Assembly: GCF_009828055.1 (NCBI RefSeq)
Contig: NZ_WTYB01000001.1
Span: 1,131,183-1,195,182 of the forward strand
Source: Erythrobacter ramosus
Lineage (GTDB): Bacteria > Pseudomonadota > Alphaproteobacteria > Sphingomonadales > Sphingomonadaceae
Length of the DNA stretch: 64,000 nt
Direction: 5' to 3'
Positions within the stretch are counted from its first letter, which is position 1. Each line of letters begins with the position of its first letter. The notes below the pieces were generated by a model. The model was given only the letters and a program-made list of their open reading frames with translations. It was not told the DNA's origin and ran no database searches. Positions 35,088 through 45,756 of the stretch are shown piece by piece. Both the position numbers and the translations under genes were made by a program.

Positions 35088-36578
35088 ATGTCGCAAGTGG
35101 TGATGTCCGGGGGGACAGGCGGAAGCCTGATCCAGATTGCCATCTGCCTTGGCGTGACGGCGGTCATCGGGCTGGTGACTTGGCTTACGATCCGCCGCGA
35201 AAAGCATGATGGATCGCGCAAGGATGTCTATCTGGCGGGGGGCAAGCTGAGCTGGCTGTTCGTCGCAGGCGCAATCACGCTGACGAACCTGTCCACCGAT
35301 CAGTTGGTGGGGATGAACGGCAACCAGATGCTGCTCCTCGCCTGGTGGGAGATCAGTGGGTTCATCGGTCTGCTGATCCTCGCCTTCGTGTTCGTGCCGA
35401 TCTATTACCGCTCCGGGGTGACGACCGTGACCGAGTTGCTGGAACAGCGCTACGGCGGCGGCGGGATTCGGACGCTGGTGTCGGCGCTGTTCCTGTTCGG
35501 GATGGTGCTGATCTATCTGCCCGCCGGGCTCTATTCGGGGGCGCTGTTCCTCAAGACCGCCGGGATCGACCTGCCGCTGCTGGTGCTGGCGGGGTTCCTC
35601 GGCGTGGTCGCGGCGGCCTATACCATGGCGGGCGGATTGCGGGCGGTCGCGGTGATGGAGACCTACGCTGGGATCGGCGTGCTGGCGATTGCGGTGCTGA
35701 TCGTTGTGCTGGCGCTAAATGCAGTCGACTGGGACATTGCGCGCGGGGTGCCCGCCGAACGGCTGACCATGGTGGGCGGAGCGGACTCCCCCATCCCGTT
35801 CCATACCCTCTTCACCGGCATGATCTTCATCCAGATCTATTACTGGTCGACCAACCAGCCGATCACCCAGAAGGCGATGGCCGCCCCCAATGTGCGTGAG
35901 GCGCAGAAGGGCGTTCTGGCGGCCGCCGTGGTGCGCATCCTGATCATTCCGGCGATTGTCGTGATCCCCGGCGTGGTCGCCTACCAGCTGTTCGGCGATA
36001 TCGACGATGCCGCCTATGGCCGGCTGGTCGGCGCGGTGCTGCCGCCGTGGCTGTCAGGCATCTTCGCTGCCGCCATCGCTGCTGCGGTGATCGCGCATAC
36101 GGCGGCGGTGATGAACGCGGCGGTCGGGCTCTATGCGGTCGATTTCCACGAGAAGTTCGTCGCCAAGGTTGAGAGTCACTGGCGGCTGTCGAGCATCGTC
36201 ACCGTGCTGCTGACGATCAGCTCGATTGCGCTGGTGCCGGTGTTCGCTTCGGCCAAGAGCATCATCAACCTGCTCCAGCAATTGAACGGGCTCAGTTCGA
36301 TGCCAATCCTGTCGGCCTTTGCGGTCGGGCTGCTGTTTACCGGGGTGGAATCGCGGGCGGCGATTATCGGCGTGCTGTGGGGTTTTGCGTTCTATGCGGC
36401 CTATACCTTCATCGCTCTGCCGCTGGGCGCGGTCACGCTGCATTACATCGACATGATGGTGGTGACGCTGGTGACGAGCATTCTCGCGGCGCTCGCCTTC
36501 AACCGCTTCGTGCTGGGCGGGCGGGCGACGTTCGCCCCGCGTTCGGCCTTTGCGCAGCGGGTGGCCGGAGCGGGGTGA
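35088..36578 (+). CDS. Sodium/sugar symporter, SSS (SLC5) family
   Basis: A 496-residue inner-membrane protein with about 14 helices. The family pattern of vSGLT-like sugar symporters is visible: DVYLAGGKLSWLFVAGAI, ITLTNLSTDQLVGMNG, TVTELLEQRYGG and the fifth-helix region YTMAGGLRAVAVMETY. The motif YYWSTNQPITQKAMAA is typical of sodium/galactose-glucose carriers. Given galT and galK immediately downstream and two galactosidases upstream, galactose or a galactoside is the likely cargo. AGAGGGGA precedes the ATG. Its stop overlaps the galT start (TGATG). Confidence 0.9.
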   Translation: MSQVVMSGGTGGSLIQIAICLGVTAVIGLVTWLTIRREKHDGSRKDVYLAGGKLSWLFVAGAITLTNLSTDQLVGMNGNQMLLLAWWEISGFIGLLILAFVFVPIYYRSGVTTVTELLEQRYGGGGIRTLVSALFLFGMVLIYLPAGLYSGALFLKTAGIDLPLLVLAGFLGVVAAAYTMAGGLRAVAVMETYAGIGVLAIAVLIVVLALNAVDWDIARGVPAERLTMVGGADSPIPFHTLFTGMIFIQIYYWSTNQPITQKAMAAPNVREAQKGVLAAAVVRILIIPAIVVIPGVVAYQLFGDIDDAAYGRLVGAVLPPWLSGIFAAAIAAAVIAHTAAVMNAAVGLYAVDFHEKFVAKVESHWRLSSIVTVLLTISSIALVPVFASAKSIINLLQQLNGLSSMPILSAFAVGLLFTGVESRAAIIGVLWGFAFYAAYTFIALPLGAVTLHYIDMMVVTLVTSILAALAFNRFVLGGRATFAPRSAFAQRVAGAG

Positions 36579-37618
36579 TGGCGGTCGATTTCGCCCGCCC
36601 GCACCGGCGTTACAACCCGCTCACTGGCGGCTGGGTGCAGGTTTCCCCGCAGCGCATGGGGCGGCCATGGCAGGGCGAGGTCAGCCTGCCCGATCCGCCG
36701 CCGCCCTCATACGATCCTGCCTGCTACCTCTGCCCCGGCAACCCCCGCGTCGGCGGCGAGGTGAACCCGGCTTACGAGGGCGTCCATGTCTTCGATAACG
36801 ACTTCCCGGCACTGGCCGAGGATCAGCCGAGCGAGGCTGATCATGACCCGCTGCTGCGGGCCGAGGCTTCGGCGGGCGTGTGCCGGGTGATCTGCTTCTC
36901 CCCGGATCACGGTAAGTCGCTGCCGCTGCTCACCCCTGAGCAACTGCGCGCCGTGGTTGACGTGTGGGCCGATCAGACCGCTGAACTCGGCCAACGCTTT
37001 GCCAATGTGCAGGTGTTCGAAAACAAGGGCGCGATGATGGGGTGTTCTAACCCTCACCCCCACGGGCAGGTCTGGGCGACGGCGCACCTCCCGCAGGAAC
37101 TCGCCGCCGAGGACGCCCACCAGCGCGCCTACCTCGCAGACCACGGAAGGGCGCTGCTGCTCGACACAGCGACGCGCGAAATTGCGGCGGGCGAGCGGGT
37201 GGTCGAGATCAACGACGACTGGCTCGCCATTATCCCCTTCTGGGCGGCCTGGCCGTTCGAGACGCTGCTACTGCCGCGCTTTGCCGTGCAGCGGATGCCG
37301 CAGCTGACCGGCGAACAGCGCGCCAGCCTCGCCAGCATCCTCAAGGCGCTGACCACGCGTTACGACAATCTGTTCCAGACCAGCTTTCCCTATTCGATGG
37401 GCTGGCATCAGGCGCCTTATGGCCCGGATTCCTTGTCGCCTGATATCGACCACTGGCAACTCCACGCGCATTTCTACCCGCCGCTGCTGCGCTCGGCTGA
37501 GGTGCGCAAGTTCATGGTGGGTTACGAGATGCTGGCCGAGCCTCAGCGCGACCTCACCCCGGAACGCGCGGCAGAGATGTTGCGCGCGGTCAGCGGTCTG
37601 GTGCATTACCGCGCCTAA
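36578..37618 (+). CDS. galT: Galactose-1-phosphate uridylyltransferase
   Basis: A 346-residue Leloir enzyme that exchanges UMP between UDP-glucose and galactose-1-phosphate. The HIT-like active site is SNPHPHGQVWA, with the catalytic His in HPHPHG-type context. The N-terminal RRYNPLTGGWVQVSPQR, the zinc-site Cys pair CYLCPGN and the C-terminal HWQLHAHFYPPLLRS are all in place. It begins at the ATG overlapping the symporter stop and is followed by galK after 15 bases. No galE or galM lies in the cluster. Confidence 0.96.
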   Translation: MAVDFARPHRRYNPLTGGWVQVSPQRMGRPWQGEVSLPDPPPPSYDPACYLCPGNPRVGGEVNPAYEGVHVFDNDFPALAEDQPSEADHDPLLRAEASAGVCRVICFSPDHGKSLPLLTPEQLRAVVDVWADQTAELGQRFANVQVFENKGAMMGCSNPHPHGQVWATAHLPQELAAEDAHQRAYLADHGRALLLDTATREIAAGERVVEINDDWLAIIPFWAAWPFETLLLPRFAVQRMPQLTGEQRASLASILKALTTRYDNLFQTSFPYSMGWHQAPYGPDSLSPDIDHWQLHAHFYPPLLRSAEVRKFMVGYEMLAEPQRDLTPERAAEMLRAVSGLVHYRA

Positions 37619-37633
37619 CGAAGGGAACGCAGC

Positions 37634-38818
37634 ATGGATCGCCGCGAGAGACTGATCGCCCGCGCCCGGCAGGGCTTCCGTCTGGCCTATGGGGTCGAGC
37701 CGCACCGCTTTTTCGCTGCCCCCGGCCGGGTCAACCTGATCGGCGAGCATGTCGATTACAATGATGGCTTCGTCCTGCCCTGCGCGATCGACCGCGAAGC
37801 GATCGTCGCGCTCGGCCCGGCGGACAAGGACGCCGCGGTCCCGCTGTTCGAGGCGGTCGCGCTCGACATGGGCGACATGGCGAGTGCGCGGGACAGCTTC
37901 GATCTTGCCAGTCCGATCGTGCCGAGCGAGAACAACTGGCAGAACCATGTGCGCGGTGTGGTGCAGGCGCTGGGGCGGGATGGCTACCGGGTCAAACCGG
38001 CGCGGATCGCGATTGCCGGCGATGTTCCCATCGGGGCGGGCCTGTCATCCTCGGCCGCGTTCGGCGTGGCGGTGGCGCTGGCCTGTTCGGACTATTCAGG
38101 GCTGGACCTGTCGGCGGAAACGCTCGCCCGGGTGGCGCAGCGCGCCGAGAACGACTTTGTCGGCTGTGCCTGCGGGATCATGGACCAGATGGCCTCCGCC
38201 GCCAGCGTCGCGGACAATGCGCTGCTGCTCGATTGCCGCAGCTTGCAGCACATGCCGATCCCGATTCATGCGAGCCTTGCCATTACGGTGATCGACACGG
38301 GCCTGCGCCGCAACCTCACCGAAAGCGCCTTTAACGAGCGGCGCGCGCAGTGCGAAGCGGCGGCGGCGTATTTCGGGCTGACGGCCTTGCGCGATCTGGA
38401 CTTCGCCACGCTGGAGGCGGCCCAGACCAGCCTCGACCGGACGCTCTACCGCCGCGCACGCCATGTGGTCGGTGAGATCGAGCGGGTCGAGCCGGTCGCG
38501 GTTGCGCTGACGCAGGGGGACACGGCATTGCTGGCCGAGGTGATGCGCGAGGCGCACCTCTCGCTGTCCGCCGATTTCGAGGTTTCACTGCCGCCGATTG
38601 ACCGGCTGGCCGGGCTGATCGGTGAGGCACTGGGCGATGCGGGCGGCGTGCGGTTGACTGGCGCTGGCTTTGGCGGATGCCTTGTCGCGGTCAGCACCCA
38701 TGATGCTGGCATCGCCATCGACGAGTCGGTCGCGCGCTACAATGTCGCCGCCGATCTGCCCGCGCGGGCCGAGACCTTCCGCCCGGTCAGGGGAGCTGCG
38801 CCGATCTCGCTGGGTTGA
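37634..38818 (+). CDS. galK: Galactokinase
   Basis: A 394-residue GHMP kinase that phosphorylates galactose at O1. The galactokinase signature GRVNLIGEHVDYNDG is at residues 31-45, the ATP motif is PIGAGLSSSAAFGVA, the GIMDQMAS segment provides the catalytic Asp region and the third motif is RLTGAGFGGCLVA. GAAGGGA precedes the ATG. It is the last gene of the symporter-galT-galK operon. Confidence 0.96.
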   Translation: MDRRERLIARARQGFRLAYGVEPHRFFAAPGRVNLIGEHVDYNDGFVLPCAIDREAIVALGPADKDAAVPLFEAVALDMGDMASARDSFDLASPIVPSENNWQNHVRGVVQALGRDGYRVKPARIAIAGDVPIGAGLSSSAAFGVAVALACSDYSGLDLSAETLARVAQRAENDFVGCACGIMDQMASAASVADNALLLDCRSLQHMPIPIHASLAITVIDTGLRRNLTESAFNERRAQCEAAAAYFGLTALRDLDFATLEAAQTSLDRTLYRRARHVVGEIERVEPVAVALTQGDTALLAEVMREAHLSLSADFEVSLPPIDRLAGLIGEALGDAGGVRLTGAGFGGCLVAVSTHDAGIAIDESVARYNVAADLPARAETFRPVRGAAPISLG

Positions 38819-38879
38819 GCAAGTGCGTTCCGGGGGCTGACGTAGCAAGTCTTTGCGAGCACCCATCGTCAGCGGACGA

Positions 38880-38907
38880 TTTACAGATATAAAAATATCT
38901 TTATATG
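38880..38907 (+). promoter_or_regulatory. Promoter of the methionine operon
   Basis: TTTACA (38880-38885) and TATATG (38902-38907) stand 16 bases apart, ending 11 bases before the ArsR-fusion start. The spacer and -10 box are almost entirely covered by the palindrome at 38887-38906. Confidence 0.55.
38887..38906. promoter_or_regulatory. 20-bp palindromic operator of the methionine operon
   Basis: ATATAAA and TTTATAT frame a central ATAT; only one pair of the 20-bp palindrome is mismatched. An AT-rich island in GC-rich DNA, it lies between the -35 and -10 boxes, directly before a gene for an ArsR-family regulator. This is the expected place for an autoregulatory repressor site. ArsR-family regulators of methionine genes (SahR and SamR) are known in other Proteobacteria. 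Confidence 0.75.
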
Positions 38908-38918
38908 ATGTTCGCACA

Positions 38919-39902
38919 ATGATGATCGAGGACATCTTCAAGGCGCTGGGCGATCCGACTAGGCTGCGCATTGCCCGCTTGCTCGGGACGATGGAACTGG
39001 CTGTGGGCGAGTTGGCACAGGTGCTCGGCCAAAGCCAGCCGCGCGTGTCGCGCCATGTCGGCATCCTGTGCGATGCGGGCCTCGCCGAACGCCGCCGCGA
39101 AGGCAGCTGGGTGTTCCTGCGCCAGAGCGAATCGAGCGCCCCGGTGATCGAAGCGGTGCAGCGCCTGCTCGCGCTGGCCGAAACCGAAGAACCCGCCTTT
39201 GCCGCGCTGTGCGAAACTGACCGCCGCAAACTCGCCGCGATTCGCAATGCGCGCGAAGCTGCGGCGGAGACCTATTTTGCCCGCCACGCCGGGGAGTGGG
39301 ACGAGCTGCGCGCGCTCCACAGCGCCGATGCTGATGTCGAACGCGGCCTTGCCGAAGCGCTGGCTGATGCGCCGCTGGGCGCGCTGCTGGATATTGGCAC
39401 TGGCACCGGGCGCATGGCCGAACTGTTCGCACCTCATGCCGAACGCATCGTCGCGCTCGACAAGAACCTCGAAATGCTGCGCGTCGCCCGCGCCAAGCTG
39501 CAACATCTGCCGACCGCACAGATCGAGCTGGTGCAGGGCGACTTTGCCGATCTGCCGTTCTCCGACGCCAGTTTCGATACCGTGGTGCTGCATCAGGTGC
39601 TGCACTTCGCCGCCGATCCTGCCCCGGCACTGGCCGAGGCGGCGCGGGTGCTGCGCAGCGGTGGGCGGATCGCGATTGTCGATTTTGCCAGCCACGATCA
39701 CGAGGAACTGCGCACTCGCCACCAGCACGTCCGGCTTGGCTTTACCGATCGTCAGATGGCCGAATTGCTGCGCGGCGCCGGGTTCAGCGTCAGCCCGCCG
39801 CTCGCGCTCGAAGGTGGGCCGCTGGTCGTCAAGATCTGGACGGCCAAGCGCCGTTCCGCCCCCGCTTTGAAGACCCCTGCCAGCCTCACGGAAACCGTCT
39901 GA
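38919..39902 (+). CDS. ArsR-family regulator fused to a SAM-dependent methyltransferase
   Basis: A 327-residue two-domain protein. Residues 1-75 are an ArsR winged helix (DIFKALGDPTRLRIARLL, then VGELAQVLGQSQPRVSRHVGIL). No Cys pair of metal-sensing type is seen. Residues about 115-315 are a class I methyltransferase fold with SAM motif LLDIGTGTGR (156-165) and FDTVVLHQVLHF. As first gene before metF and metH it probably represses them and reads SAM or SAH through its methyltransferase domain, like SahR-type control; this is inference. The start is ATG 38919 or the next ATG, 38922. Its stop overlaps metF (TGATG). Confidence 0.9.
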   Translation: MMIEDIFKALGDPTRLRIARLLGTMELAVGELAQVLGQSQPRVSRHVGILCDAGLAERRREGSWVFLRQSESSAPVIEAVQRLLALAETEEPAFAALCETDRRKLAAIRNAREAAAETYFARHAGEWDELRALHSADADVERGLAEALADAPLGALLDIGTGTGRMAELFAPHAERIVALDKNLEMLRVARAKLQHLPTAQIELVQGDFADLPFSDASFDTVVLHQVLHFAADPAPALAEAARVLRSGGRIAIVDFASHDHEELRTRHQHVRLGFTDRQMAELLRGAGFSVSPPLALEGGPLVVKIWTAKRRSAPALKTPASLTETV

Positions 39903-40831
39903 TGACCCCGACTCTCGACCAGCTCCACGAATACCGCACAGCCACCGACATGCCGCTGTTTTCCGGCCTGCCGGGGGATGTTGCGGTGAGCTTCGAATTC
40001 TTCCCGCCCAAGAGCGAGAAGATGGAAGAACAGCTGTGGGATGCGGTGACGCAGCTGAAGCCGCTGGGGCCGAGCTTTGTTTCGGTCACCTACGGCGCGG
40101 GCGGTTCGACCCGCGAGCGCACCCACGCCACGGTGGCGCGGATCATTGGCGAGGCGAAGCTCCCTGCCGCAGCGCATCTGACCTGCGTTGCGGCGTCGAA
40201 GGCCGAAATCCGCGAGGTCGCCGAACATTATTGGGAAGCGGGCGTGCGCCACATCGTCGCGCTGCGCGGCGATGCGGGTGAACCCGGCGCGCCCTTCACC
40301 CCGCACCCTGAAGGCTATGCCAGCGCGGCGGAGCTGGTCAGCGGGCTGAAGGCCATTGCGCCGTTCGAAATCTCGGTCGCCGCCTATCCGGAAACCCACC
40401 CTGATGCGCTTAGCCCACAGGACGATATCGACAATCTGAAGCGCAAGCTGGATGCTGGGGCCACCCGCGCGATCAGCCAGTTCTTCTTCTCGCCCGAAGC
40501 CTTCTTCCGCTTCCGCGATGCCTGCGCGGCGAGCGGGATCGACGCCCCGATCCTGCCCGGCATCCTCCCTGTCACCAATGTCGCGCAGGCGCGTAAGTTC
40601 GCCGCCGCGTGCGGGGCGTCAATCCCGGCATGGATGGACGGCTTGTTCGAAGGCCTCGACGAAAAGCCCGCCGCGCGCCAGCTGGTCGCCGCAACGGTCG
40701 CCGCTGAACTGTGCCGCCGGCTCTATGCGGGCGGGGTGCGCGATTTCCACTTCTACACCTTGAACCGCCCCGAGCTTGCCTATGCGATCTGCCACATGCT
40801 CGGGAAGCGTCCGGTCGGAGACGACGCATGA
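39902..40831 (+). CDS. metF: 5,10-methylenetetrahydrofolate reductase
   Basis: A 309-residue FAD enzyme that makes 5-methyltetrahydrofolate for methionine synthase. The TIM-barrel blocks are clear: VSFEFFPPKSEKMEEQLWD, SVTYGAGGSTRERTH, AHLTCVAAS, RHIVALRGDAG, VAAYPETHPDA, AISQFFFSPEAFFRFRD, PGILPVTN and the final FHFYTLNRPELAYAIC. It overlaps the preceding regulator (TGATG) and the following metH part 1 (ATGA), so all three are translated in series. Confidence 0.96.
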   Translation: MTPTLDQLHEYRTATDMPLFSGLPGDVAVSFEFFPPKSEKMEEQLWDAVTQLKPLGPSFVSVTYGAGGSTRERTHATVARIIGEAKLPAAAHLTCVAASKAEIREVAEHYWEAGVRHIVALRGDAGEPGAPFTPHPEGYASAAELVSGLKAIAPFEISVAAYPETHPDALSPQDDIDNLKRKLDAGATRAISQFFFSPEAFFRFRDACAASGIDAPILPGILPVTNVAQARKFAAACGASIPAWMDGLFEGLDEKPAARQLVAATVAAELCRRLYAGGVRDFHFYTLNRPELAYAICHMLGKRPVGDDA

Positions 40832-41871
40832 GTGCGCGTGAACAATTGCTCGCAGCCGCCGCCAAGCGCGTGCTGATCTTCGACGGCGCGTTCGGCACGC
40901 AGATCCAGAACCGCAAGCTGACCGAAGCCGATTACGCGGGCGATCTGGGCCTTGCCGCGGATCAGAAGGGCAATAACGACATTCTGGCGCTGACCCGCCC
41001 CGACGTGATCGGTGACATCACCCGCGCCTATCTGGATGCGGGATCGGATGTGGTCTCGACCAACACCTTCTCGGCCAACCGCATCAGCCAGGCCGATTAT
41101 GCGACCGAAGGTCTGGTGCGAGACATCAACGTGGCGAGCGGCAAGCTCGCCCGCGCGCTCGCGGATGAATATGCCGCCAAGGATGGCCGCCCGCGCTTTG
41201 TCGCGGGAGCCATCGGGCCGACCAACAAGACTCTGTCGCTCAGCCCTGATGTCGAAGACCCCGGCTACCGCGAGATCGACTTTGATGAACTCGTCGCGGT
41301 CTACAAGGAACAGGCTGCCGCGCTGGTCGAAGGCGGGGTGGACTTCATCCTGATCGAGACGGTGTTCGATACCTTGAACGCCAAGGCGGGGATCATGGCG
41401 GTCAAGCAGTTGGAGCGCGAGACGGGCCGGGACATCCCGCTGATGATCTCGATGACACTGACCGACCTGTCGGGCCGCAATCTGTCGGGCCACACGGTCG
41501 AGGCGTTCTGGTACGCGGTGCGCCATGCCAAGCCGGTCACCATCGGTTTGAATTGCAGCTTCGGCGCAGAGCAGCTGCGCCCGCACGTCAAGGTGCTCTC
41601 GCAGATCGCCGACACGCTGCTGATGATCTATCCCAACGCGGGCCTCCCCAACGAGCTCGGCGAATATGACGAGCAGCCCGACACCACCGCGGGGTTGGTC
41701 AAGGACTGGGCCGATCACGGTCAAGTCAATATCCTCGGCGGCTGCTGCGGATCGAGCCCGGCGCATATCGCCGCGATTGCCAAGGCGGTGGCCAAGTCCG
41801 AGCCGCGCAAGGTGCCGCACCCCGAGCCTGCGATGCGGCTGGCGGGGCTCGAAGCCTTCATTGCGGCCTGA
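40828..41871 (+). CDS. metH: Methionine synthase, homocysteine-binding part (split MetH)
   Basis: A 347-residue protein equal to the first domain of cobalamin-dependent MetH. It binds homocysteine through zinc, with Cys ligands in GLNCSFG and the GGCCGSSP pair. It opens with the family sequence RVLIFDGAFGTQIQ and contains TNTFSANRISQADY. The pterin, cobalamin and activation domains are encoded by the next gene, 20 bases downstream, so the enzyme is made from two polypeptides. This split is common in alphaproteobacteria and is not a recent frameshift, since the second gene has its own start. Confidence 0.94.
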   Translation: MSAREQLLAAAAKRVLIFDGAFGTQIQNRKLTEADYAGDLGLAADQKGNNDILALTRPDVIGDITRAYLDAGSDVVSTNTFSANRISQADYATEGLVRDINVASGKLARALADEYAAKDGRPRFVAGAIGPTNKTLSLSPDVEDPGYREIDFDELVAVYKEQAAALVEGGVDFILIETVFDTLNAKAGIMAVKQLERETGRDIPLMISMTLTDLSGRNLSGHTVEAFWYAVRHAKPVTIGLNCSFGAEQLRPHVKVLSQIADTLLMIYPNAGLPNELGEYDEQPDTTAGLVKDWADHGQVNILGGCCGSSPAHIAAIAKAVAKSEPRKVPHPEPAMRLAGLEAFIAA

Positions 41872-41891
41872 TTTGAACTGAGAGTTTCCAA

Positions 41892-44504
41892 GTGACCCAA
41901 CCCTCCTCCGCCCGCTTCATCAACATCGGTGAACGCACCAACGTCACCGGATCGGCGGCGTTCAAGAAGCTGATCATGGCGGGCGATTATCCAACGGCCG
42001 TCGAAGTCGCGCGCCAGCAGGTCGAAAACGGCGCGCAGGTGATCGACGTCAACATGGACGAAGGCCTGCTCGACGCGGTCCACGCCATGACGACCTTCCT
42101 CAAGCTGATCGCCGCCGAGCCCGATATCGCGCGCGTGCCGGTCATGATCGACAGCTCGAAATTCCACGTGATCGAGGCTGGGCTGAAATGCGTCAGCGGC
42201 AAGCCGATCGTCAATTCGATCAGCATGAAGGAGGGCGAGGCCGCCTTCCTCGAACACGCCCGCATCTGCATGGATTACGGCGCGGCTGTGGTCGTCATGG
42301 CCTTCGACACGGTCGGTCAGGCCGACACCAAGCAGCGCAAGGTCGAAATCTGCAAGCGCGCCTATGATCTGCTGGTGGCCGAGGGCTTCCCACCCGAAGA
42401 CATCATCTTCGATCCCAACATCTTCGCGGTCGCGACCGGGATTGAAGAACACAACAATTACGGCGTCGACTTCATCGAGGCGGTCAAGGAACTGCGCGAG
42501 CTGTGCCCCTACGCGCATTATTCGGGCGGGCTCTCCAACCTCAGCTTCAGCTTCCGCGGCAATGAACCCGTGCGCCGCGCGATGCATTCGGTGTTCCTCT
42601 ATCACGCGATTCCGGCGGGCCTCGACATGGCGATCGTCAACGCGGGGCAGCTCGACGTTTACGACCAGATCGATCCGGCCCTGCGTGACGCCTGCGAAGA
42701 CGTGATCCTCAACCGCGATCCGGACGCGACCGAACGCCTCATCACGCTGGCCGAAAGCTTCAAGGGCAAGTCGGTTGCGGATGAAAAGGCCGCCGAGGAA
42801 TGGCGCGGCTGGGCGGTCGAAAAGCGGCTCGAACACGCGCTGGTCAAGGGCATTGACGCGCATATCGTCGATGATACCGAAATCATGCGCGCCGCCATTG
42901 CCGAGGCTGGCGGGCGGCCCATCGAAGTGATCGAAGGCCCGTTGATGGACGGGATGAACGTGGTCGGCGACTTGTTCGGCAGCGGCAAGATGTTCCTGCC
43001 GCAGGTGGTCAAATCCGCGCGCGTGATGAAGAAGGCGGTCGCCCACCTCATCCCCTTCATCGAGGCCGAGAAGGACCTGCTTCCCGAAGAGGAACGCAAG
43101 GCCAAGGGCAAGATCATCATGGCGACGGTGAAGGGCGATGTGCACGACATCGGCAAGAACATCGTCGGCGTCGTGCTCCAGTGCAACGGCTATGACGTGA
43201 TCGACTTGGGCGTGATGGTGCCGTGGCCGACGATCCTCGCTTCGGCCAATGACAACAAGGCCGACATGATCGGGCTTTCGGGCCTCATCACGCCCTCATT
43301 GGACGAGATGGTGACCGTCGCCGAGGAAATGCAGCGCGCCGGCATGACCATGCCGCTGCTGATCGGCGGGGCGACCACCTCGAAGGTCCACACCGCGCTG
43401 AAGATCGATCCGGCCTACGAAGGCCCCGTGATCCACGTGCTCGACGCGAGCCGCGCGGTGGGGGTGGCGTCCAAGCTGCTGTCCGACACCCAGCGCGATA
43501 GCTACGTCGCCGAGGTCGAGGACGAATATATCGCCGTGCGCGATGCCCGCGCGGGCCGGACCGTGAGCGCGCTGCTGCCGCTGGACGAAGCGCGCGCCAA
43601 TGCCTTTCCCGCCGACTTCGCCGCCAAACCCGCCGCACCTGCGCAGCCGGGGGTGCATGTCTTCCCCGACTGGAGCCTTGAGCACTTGCGCGGCTTCATT
43701 GACTGGACGCCGTTCTTCCGCGCGTGGGAGTTGCACGGCAATTACCCCGCGATCCTGACCGACGAAGTGGTCGGCGAAACCGCGACCCAGCTGTTCGCCG
43801 ATGCCAACGAAATGCTCGATACAATCATCGCCGAAAAATGGCTGACCGCGCGCGGTGTCGCAGGCCTGTGGCCGTGCGGGCGCGACGGGGATGACATCGT
43901 GCTCGACAACGGCGCGCGCCTCCCGATGCTGCGCCAGCAGGTCAAGAAGTCGCGCGATCGGGCCAATATGTGCCTCGCCGATTTTATCGACCCGGCGGGC
44001 GACTGGATCGGCGGTTTTGCCGTCGGCATCCACGGGATCGACAGCCACTCGGCGCGGTTCCAGGCGGACAAGGACGATTATTCCGACATCCTGCTGAAGG
44101 CGCTGGCCGACCGTTTCGCGGAGGCATTCGCCGAAGCGCTGCATCAGCACGTCCGCACCACGCTGTGGGCCTATGCGCCGGGCGAGCAGCTGACCTGCGA
44201 GGCGCTGATCAAGGAAGAATATCGCGGGATCCGCCCCGCGCCGGGCTATCCCGCCTGTCCCGATCACTCGCTGAAGCCGATCCTGTTCGACCTGCTCGAT
44301 GCGCCGACCAACACCGGCCTGACCCTGACCGAAAGCTTCGCCATGTGGCCGACGGCGGCGGTTTCAGGCTTCTATTTCGGTCACCCCGAAGCGGCCTATT
44401 TCGGCGTTGCCCGCGTGGGGCCGGATCAGGTCGAGGAATATGCCGCCCGGCGCGGGGTCGATCTGGCGACGGCAGAACGCTGGCTGCGGCCGAATCTCGA
44501 TTGA
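41892..44504 (+). CDS. metH: Methionine synthase, folate/cobalamin/activation part (split MetH)
   Basis: An 870-residue protein with the remaining MetH domains. The pterin-binding domain comes first ([14 protein letters not shown], then [16 protein letters not shown]). The cap and cobalamin domain follow, with the cobalt-ligand His418 in [11 protein letters not shown] and the [13 protein letters not shown] segment. Last is the SAM-binding activation domain (about residues 560-865, [13 protein letters not shown]). It methylates homocysteine from 5-methyltetrahydrofolate through methylcobalamin and is reactivated by SAM. The start is a GTG; only a weak GAGAG lies upstream. Confidence 0.95.
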
Positions 44505-44523
44505 CGCGGGCGCAGGGGCAGCG

Positions 44524-45756
44524 ATGATGCGCGGTATGATCCGCCGCTTCCTCGCCGCTTTGGTGTTCATCGCCGCCCCCGCCACCGCGCAAGAGACCGC
44601 GCCGTCGCCTGCCACGCCGCCTGCTACAGTGGTGGTCGCCTTCAACCGCGAGACCATCACCCCGCTGATCGTCGAGGGGCTGGCGAACCTTGAGACCGCG
44701 CGCCCGGTCGCAGCCAATGATCCGGTGCGGATCGCGTCGATCTCCAAGCTGATCATGGCGCTCACCGCGCTCAGGCTGGTGGACGAGGGCAAGCTTGATC
44801 TCGACCGTGATGTTTCGGACTATGTCGGGTGGAAGGTGCGCTCGCCTTACCATCCCGACGCGCCTGTCACGCTGGCGCACTTGCTGTCGCACCGCGCGGG
44901 GCTGAGCGACAAGGCGGGTTACATTATCCCCCTGGGCGAGAGCCTTGAGGCGAAATTTGCCGACCCTGCCGCCTGGCGCGACACCGGCCCGTCGGGGGAG
45001 GCGGCGTTTGAATATGCCAACCTCGGCTCACCGCTGGTCGCCACCGCGCTCGAAGCTGCTTCGGGTGAGCGGTATGACCGGCTGGTCGAACGGCTGGTGT
45101 TTGCGCCGCTGGGGGTGAAGGCCTGTCTCAACTGGATCGGCTGCGATGCCGATATGCAGGCCCGCAAGGTGACGCTCTACCGCCACACCGGCGAAGTCGC
45201 AGCCGACGGTGCAGGCAGACTGCCGTCCGCCTGCACCATCCCGGTGGCGGAGGGCATTGCCTGCGAGCTGGCGAACTATGTCCCCGGCACCAATGCCTCG
45301 ATCTTCTCCCCGCAAGGCGGGGTCCGGATCGGGATGCTGGACCTCGCGAAGATCGGGCAGGCGTTCGGTGAGCCCCGCGCCTTCTTCTCGGATCGTGCGA
45401 AGCAAGGCTTCGATCGCGCGTGGAACACCAGTTTCCATCCCGATCAGGAATTCTTCTGCATCTATGGTCTGCATCTACAGATCATCGATTCGTCCCAAGC
45501 GCTGTGGGCGAATGCGGAGCAGCCCAAGCCGGCGACGTGCCGGGACGAGCTGTTTGGCGACGGCGTAGCAAGGGTGGGCCATTCGGGCGAAGCTTACGGC
45601 CTGCAATCGGGCCTCTGGTTCGACCTCGGCACGGGCCGGGGCTTCGCCTACTTCCTCACCCAAGTCCCGCCCCCGGCAGGCGGCGAGGACACTGGCGGCT
45701 TCACGGCGCGCGAGAAGGCGCTGATGGCGCGGGCGCAGGCGATGATTCGCAAATAG
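44524..45756 (+). CDS. Exported serine hydrolase, beta-lactamase/esterase fold
   Basis: A 410-residue protein with a signal peptide (about residues 1-22, ending TAQ). The class C-like motifs are present: SxxK as SISK (Ser72, Lys75), YxN as YAN (Tyr164, Asn166), and HSG near residue 354 in place of KTG. This combination is usual for family S12 peptidases and esterases, so drug resistance should not be assumed. AGGGG lies 5 bases before the ATG at 44524. It follows metH by 19 bases and may share its transcript, though no functional link is apparent. Confidence 0.85.
   Translation: MMRGMIRRFLAALVFIAAPATAQETAPSPATPPATVVVAFNRETITPLIVEGLANLETARPVAANDPVRIASISKLIMALTALRLVDEGKLDLDRDVSDYVGWKVRSPYHPDAPVTLAHLLSHRAGLSDKAGYIIPLGESLEAKFADPAAWRDTGPSGEAAFEYANLGSPLVATALEAASGERYDRLVERLVFAPLGVKACLNWIGCDADMQARKVTLYRHTGEVAADGAGRLPSACTIPVAEGIACELANYVPGTNASIFSPQGGVRIGMLDLAKIGQAFGEPRAFFSDRAKQGFDRAWNTSFHPDQEFFCIYGLHLQIIDSSQALWANAEQPKPATCRDELFGDGVARVGHSGEAYGLQSGLWFDLGTGRGFAYFLTQVPPPAGGEDTGGFTAREKALMARAQAMIRK

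Follow-up and report, generated by a model that had tools for sequence, protein, structure and literature searches.

SahR has been described as an SAH-responsive regulator of the ArsR family that recognises a 20-bp palindrome; its core regulon comprises sahR, ahcY, metH, metH2, metF and metK, and was reconstructed in seven of seven Sphingomonadales genomes (Leyn et al. 2014, PMC4239095). In the same work, SamR of the Xanthomonadales was presented as a regulator of methionine synthase genes, and it is the same type of fusion placed before them. SAH-dependent binding is also stated in PMC8877191 with reference to Desulfovibrio work, and in the Ensifer experiments of that paper the sahR promoter was most strongly expressed when sahR had been deleted, which supports autoregulation. 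A third description concerns ArsR^M, an arsenite methyltransferase according to its authors, from Brevundimonas sp. M20, in which the same fusion is the first gene of the operon arsR^M-metF-HMT-1-metH (PMC10190100); here the likeness is drawn from the published description. An AT-rich palindrome precedes its start codon, as it does that of sahR here, and the fused protein was gel-shifted on its own promoter.

The locus reported here lies in a window of 64,000 nucleotides of Erythrobacter ramosus DNA, by which the whole analysed stretch is meant. No publication on an Erythrobacter SahR protein was found in a literature search. The following features could be assigned.

38880 to 38885, + strand: TTTACA, putative -35 box of the promoter for sahR-metF-metH (promoter scan and relatives)
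38887 to 38906, no strand assigned: SahR operator, the 20-bp palindrome ATATAAAAATATCTTTATAT (palindrome search, pattern scans and conservation)
38904 to 38909, + strand: putative -10 box TATGAT (promoter scan; overlapping alternative TATATG at 38902-38907)
38919 to 39902, + strand: sahR, 327 amino acids, ArsR winged helix (residues 12-57) and class I methyltransferase-like domain (about 115-313) (open reading frame, families and AlphaFold model)
39902 to 40831, + strand: metF, methylenetetrahydrofolate reductase (PF02219), its ATG sharing one base with the sahR stop
40828 to 41871, + strand: metH1, homocysteine S-methyltransferase part of a split methionine synthase (PF02574), its ATG overlapping the metF stop (ATGA)
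41892 to 44504, + strand: metH2, activation and pterin-/B12-binding parts of the split methionine synthase (Pterin_bind, B12-binding, Met_synt_B12), with a GTG start

Family assignment of the first gene product revealed HTH_5 (ArsR) at residues 12-57 with 37 bits (cut-off 22) and Methyltransf_11 at residues 157-253 with 94.2 bits (cut-off 21.2), both above their cut-offs, in agreement with the original prediction of a winged helix joined to a SAM-binding domain. A longer sahR frame from TTG at 38853 was rejected, since the palindrome would fall within the coding region. The locus combines the features by which SahR is recognised, namely the fusion of an HTH and a methyltransferase-like domain, a 20-bp operator of its own, the core regulon and a place within the Sphingomonadales range, and the gene is almost certainly sahR. 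No substantial difference from the published SahR regulon was seen in autoregulator family, palindrome or targets; the genus operator departs from the SahR consensus at position 8, where G is replaced by A. Immediately upstream, at 35088-38818 on the + strand, lie galactose genes (a sodium/solute symporter, galT and galK), and no link between these and the methionine operon was seen. Another HTH_5 match, at C3:895168, was considered as a second fusion and rejected as a SahR paralog, since inspection by eye suggests an HTH of the MarR type followed by a GNAT-like tail.

The operator ATATAAAAATATCTTTATAT consists of two 10-nt arms in which nine of the ten pairs are complementary, confirming the AT-rich 20-bp palindrome with one mismatched pair that had been predicted. 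When both strands of the window were scanned for this pattern with up to three mismatches, one match was obtained, and the maximum in 100 dinucleotide-preserving shuffles was zero. The TTTACA and TATGAT boxes, separated by an 18-nt spacer, form the sole promoter-like pair upstream of sahR; the region 38700-44800 contained two such pairs compared to a shuffle mean of 0.6. Most of the spacer is occupied by the palindrome, which also takes in the first three bases of the -10 box, so that its predicted placement between the two boxes is nearly exact. With promoter and operon also found in place, the proposal of an ArsR-methyltransferase protein behind its own operator, heading metF-metH, held. A TTTACA or TTGAC-type box stands directly 5' of the palindrome in most family-level relatives; among genus relatives the bases 3' of the palindrome are variable and the TATAT within it is invariant. 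The sahR ATG lies 9 nt 3' of the TATGAT box (38904-38919), and the distance from palindrome to start was 8-15 nt in 50 of the 57 family-level loci, with the start placed by alignment. Given the -10 box at the palindrome end and this short distance, the sahR message probably has no leader, or hardly any. The SamR-type 24-bp palindrome (ATC-10 nt-GAT) was absent from the operator, which is of the 20-bp alpha type. An Rfam scan of 38500-44700 detected no riboswitch and returned a single snoRNA match (E 0.27, far under the gathering score), which was taken as chance; riboswitch control was dropped.

Extending the pattern scan (up to three mismatches) to the 3.24-Mb genome, in 10 contigs, yielded two matches, and the reversed-pattern control yielded none. 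The second match, L039:1501-1520, ends 91 bp before the ATG of a frame that was named by eye as S-adenosylhomocysteine hydrolase, AhcY. The metK gene, located via family PF00438, is preceded 59 bp upstream of its start by the weak site ACATAAAGGTTTCCTTATAT, which agrees with 16 of 20 consensus positions and has six of ten complementary pairs. An element agreeing at 15-17 of 20 positions was found before metK in all 30 genus loci, these being the ones fetched out of 37 matches, and every one outscored the full set of 200 single-base shuffles made from the stretch upstream of that metK, among which the highest score was 14. The search for the motif before ahcY and metK, proposed along with the original prediction, was therefore positive for both, more weakly for metK, and the operon together with these two sites matches the known SahR regulon, which bears out the expected ArsR-type SAM/SAH control of methionine genes. 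Two metK copies were present in genome G022, as against a single copy in each of the 35 remaining genus genomes that matched.

Conservation was assessed in 177 loci, 57 from the family, 20 from the order, 20 from the class and 80 from named genomes; these sets overlap in that a few named loci are contigs of another set. Of 594 named relatives the best 80 were taken, mostly from Erythrobacter, Novosphingobium and other Sphingomonadales. An operator agreeing with at least 15 of 20 consensus positions was observed upstream of sahR in 173 of the 177 loci, including all 57 family-level loci by their best upstream element; L148, L206, L207 and L209 fell below this value. Decay is seen in L148, from Erythrobacter sp. 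QSSC1-22B, where the best match before sahR keeps 14/20 operator positions and 4/10 pairs, although the locus retains metF on the sahR strand. Downstream of sahR, metF follows on the same strand after 0-157 nt in every one of the 77 family and order loci, metH1 follows in 76 of them, and metF shares the strand in 172 of all 177 loci. Among 118 order genomes, the SahR protein was detected in 106 (E 1e-40) and at least one operator site within three mismatches in 111. The reversed-pattern control matched in 33 of the 118, once in 25 of these, and equalled or exceeded the pattern in five (G092, G098, G129, G132 and G149); one weak match by itself is therefore no proof. Half of the 12 genomes lacking the protein also lacked a site. 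Among the six with a site, five are 66-77% complete, and in the sixth, G048, the gene is split over two contigs.

Three near-complete genomes of the window's family, G062, G065 and G134, contained no sahR (E 1e-40), no operator within three mismatches, no metF (E 1e-30) and no metH2 (E 1e-20); regulator, operators and target operon were missing together. G063, which shares its genus with two of these, has kept sahR, metF and metH2, and its operator has drifted to 15/20, with none found within three mismatches. Methionine-synthase-like proteins with strong PF01717 matches occur in all four genomes (E 4e-30 or better, compared to a best value of 1.9e-10 in the window's genome), which suggests that MetH may have given way to a different methionine synthase in them.

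The AlphaFold model of the protein had a mean pLDDT of 94.5 and a pTM of 0.87. In the VIA-align comparison, which drew mainly on residues 56-314 and in which rows within 1 of the top Z were regarded as tied, residues 138-313 matched the putative methyltransferase 1vl5_A (Z 23.7, rmsd 1.8, 174 residues). The top Foldseek matches included the two-domain proteins Rv2258c, DnrK and RdmB, which like SahR carry an N-terminal winged helix and a class I methyltransferase domain but, unlike SahR, are listed in the PDB as methyltransferases or their relatives; their superposition over both domains, at an rmsd of about 16-20 Å, gives little information on domain arrangement. In methyltransferases of the Rv2258c, DnrK and RdmB type, the winged helix serves dimerisation and is not known to bind DNA. 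Each PDB sequence match, among the 60 listed of 97, covers one domain alone, so an SAH-driven movement of the winged helix has probably not yet been seen in a structure. The effector domain of SahR is itself reportedly related to SAM-dependent methylases, a relation attributed to Novichkov and co-workers in 2014.

Alignment of 181 alphaproteobacterial sequences (the 177 loci and four more, with a few duplicates) revealed an intact motif I, with D158, G160 and G162, as well as D181, kept in all 181. From residue 110 onward, 39 positions were identical in at least 175 of the sequences, including W127, R131, H225, H229, H259, E262, R265, H270 and R272. These residues fit a specialised ligand pocket, which would be compatible with the presence or the absence of catalysis.

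Relatives in other classes of the phylum were searched with a profile of the whole fusion (E 1e-25). Among 18 matches, 16 could be fetched, and the profile matched across both domains in all of them; as a full-length query retrieves fusions and leaves unfused regulators invisible, these counts are silent on the frequency of the latter. Twelve of the 16 fusions stand before metK (L221-L232), ten of them with palindromes of the ATATCA...TGATA type, and four stand before metH1 (L217-L220), three of them with ATATCTCTATATCGCGATAG; the latter four share 34-36% identity with the window protein. Judged from context, the metK and metH groups look like the gammaproteobacterial SahR and the Xanthomonadales SamR of PMC4239095. 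At pocket positions, the metK group has N225, D270 and W272 instead (12 of 12) and the metH group M225, T229 and N272 (4 of 4); H259 and G274 are common to all 197 sequences. The suggestion that the fused form goes beyond SahR and SamR failed, since the relatives recovered by the full-length query at known SahR and SamR places, in front of metF-metH in Alphaproteobacteria and of metK or metH in other classes, are fusions as well. The fusion is the known form of SahR, and whether the sensor is a retired or an active enzyme is not a new question.

The SAH response reported for Desulfovibrio and the Brevundimonas gel shift make repression at the operator with release by SAH the best explanation of the locus. 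A SahR dimer would bind the 20-bp palindrome through its winged helices, and, as the palindrome takes up most of the spacer and reaches into the -10 box, the bound protein would block RNA polymerase at sahR-metF-metH1-metH2, amounting to autoregulation; dimer geometry and steric repression are presumed here. From the matching sites, SahR is predicted also to repress ahcY and probably metK. Accumulated SAH, the ligand expected in this species by analogy, would bind the methyltransferase-like domain and cause the repressor to leave the DNA, and the genes for clearing SAH and remaking methionine and SAM would then be switched on. We regard the whole of this statement, an SAH-released repressor of the SAM cycle controlling its own operon, ahcY and probably metK, as very probable.

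A bifunctional arsenite methyltransferase and regulator, linking arsenic detoxification with methionine synthesis, is the reading that the Brevundimonas work would favour. There, the fused protein heads the same type of operon, induced E. coli showed a higher As(III) MIC, and a kit signal was obtained with SAM, As(III) and the protein (PMC10190100). If the numbering shifts by two, the docking residues H223, Q224, H227, F254, R263 and H268 of that paper correspond to H225, Q226, H229, F256, R265 and H270 here, with Q226 conserved in 162 of the 181 relatives; the arsenic contact Y228 would be F230 in the window protein, a position with Y in 73 of 181. Against this reading, the window protein has cysteines only at positions 51 and 98 and none in its methyltransferase half, and 116 of the 181 relatives in the Alphaproteobacteria are cysteine-free from residue 115 to the end. 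Known ArsM enzymes bind As(III) through cysteine thiols, and the cysteine absence speaks against a putative arsenite methyltransferase. With the same shift, the arsenic-site C134 of M20 corresponds to A136, a position with cysteine in one of 181 sequences (four at position 135), and this cysteine is not present in the window protein. PMC10190100 itself contrasts its protein with cysteine-based ArsM, defines its activity unit by the SAH formed, gives no arsenic speciation in its methods section, and does not mention SahR. The regular company of metF, which shares the strand with sahR in 172 of the 177 loci, likewise argues against it, and arsenite methylation is highly improbable as the role of this protein.

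The same targets, metF-metH and probably metK, could also be explained by end-product repression, with SAM acting as corepressor in a SamR-like logic; the cofactor motif is intact, and the SamR effector is left open in PMC4239095. The sole other operator within three mismatches in the genome lies, however, before the gene of the SAH hydrolase, ahcY, and the SamR-like metH relatives, so named from context, differ from the window protein in both operator and pocket (M225, T229 and N272 vs H225, H229 and R272), which makes a SAM-responsive sensor very unlikely. A domain that is still catalytically active on a small molecule of its own, and whose turnover state sets DNA binding, would account for the nine residues from W127 to R272 kept beyond the cofactor motif and for the match of the domain to solved methyltransferases (Z up to 23.7). 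No substrate gene was seen in the operon, and conservation is equally expected of a lidded pocket selective for SAH, so this reading is considered unlikely; it is compatible with SAH-released repression except for the domain's role as a sensor only. PMC10190100 reports methyltransferase activity for a fusion encoded in this type of operon, and that does count against a pure sensor, which would show none. A related conjecture takes up the conserved pocket candidates, which are rebuilt differently in the metK and the SamR-like metH clades: the sensor might be a live methyltransferase, not a retired one, or one of three ligand pockets, with turnover of SAM to SAH resetting DNA binding. This conjecture is considered unlikely.

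The SahR regulon is already known, and the gene at this locus is an ordinary copy of sahR. The reports on SahR as an SAH sensor and on ArsR^M as an arsenite methyltransferase are unconnected, though they seemingly deal with the same kind of protein. The SahR regulon, a reading already published for the family, is here confirmed for a further genus, Erythrobacter.
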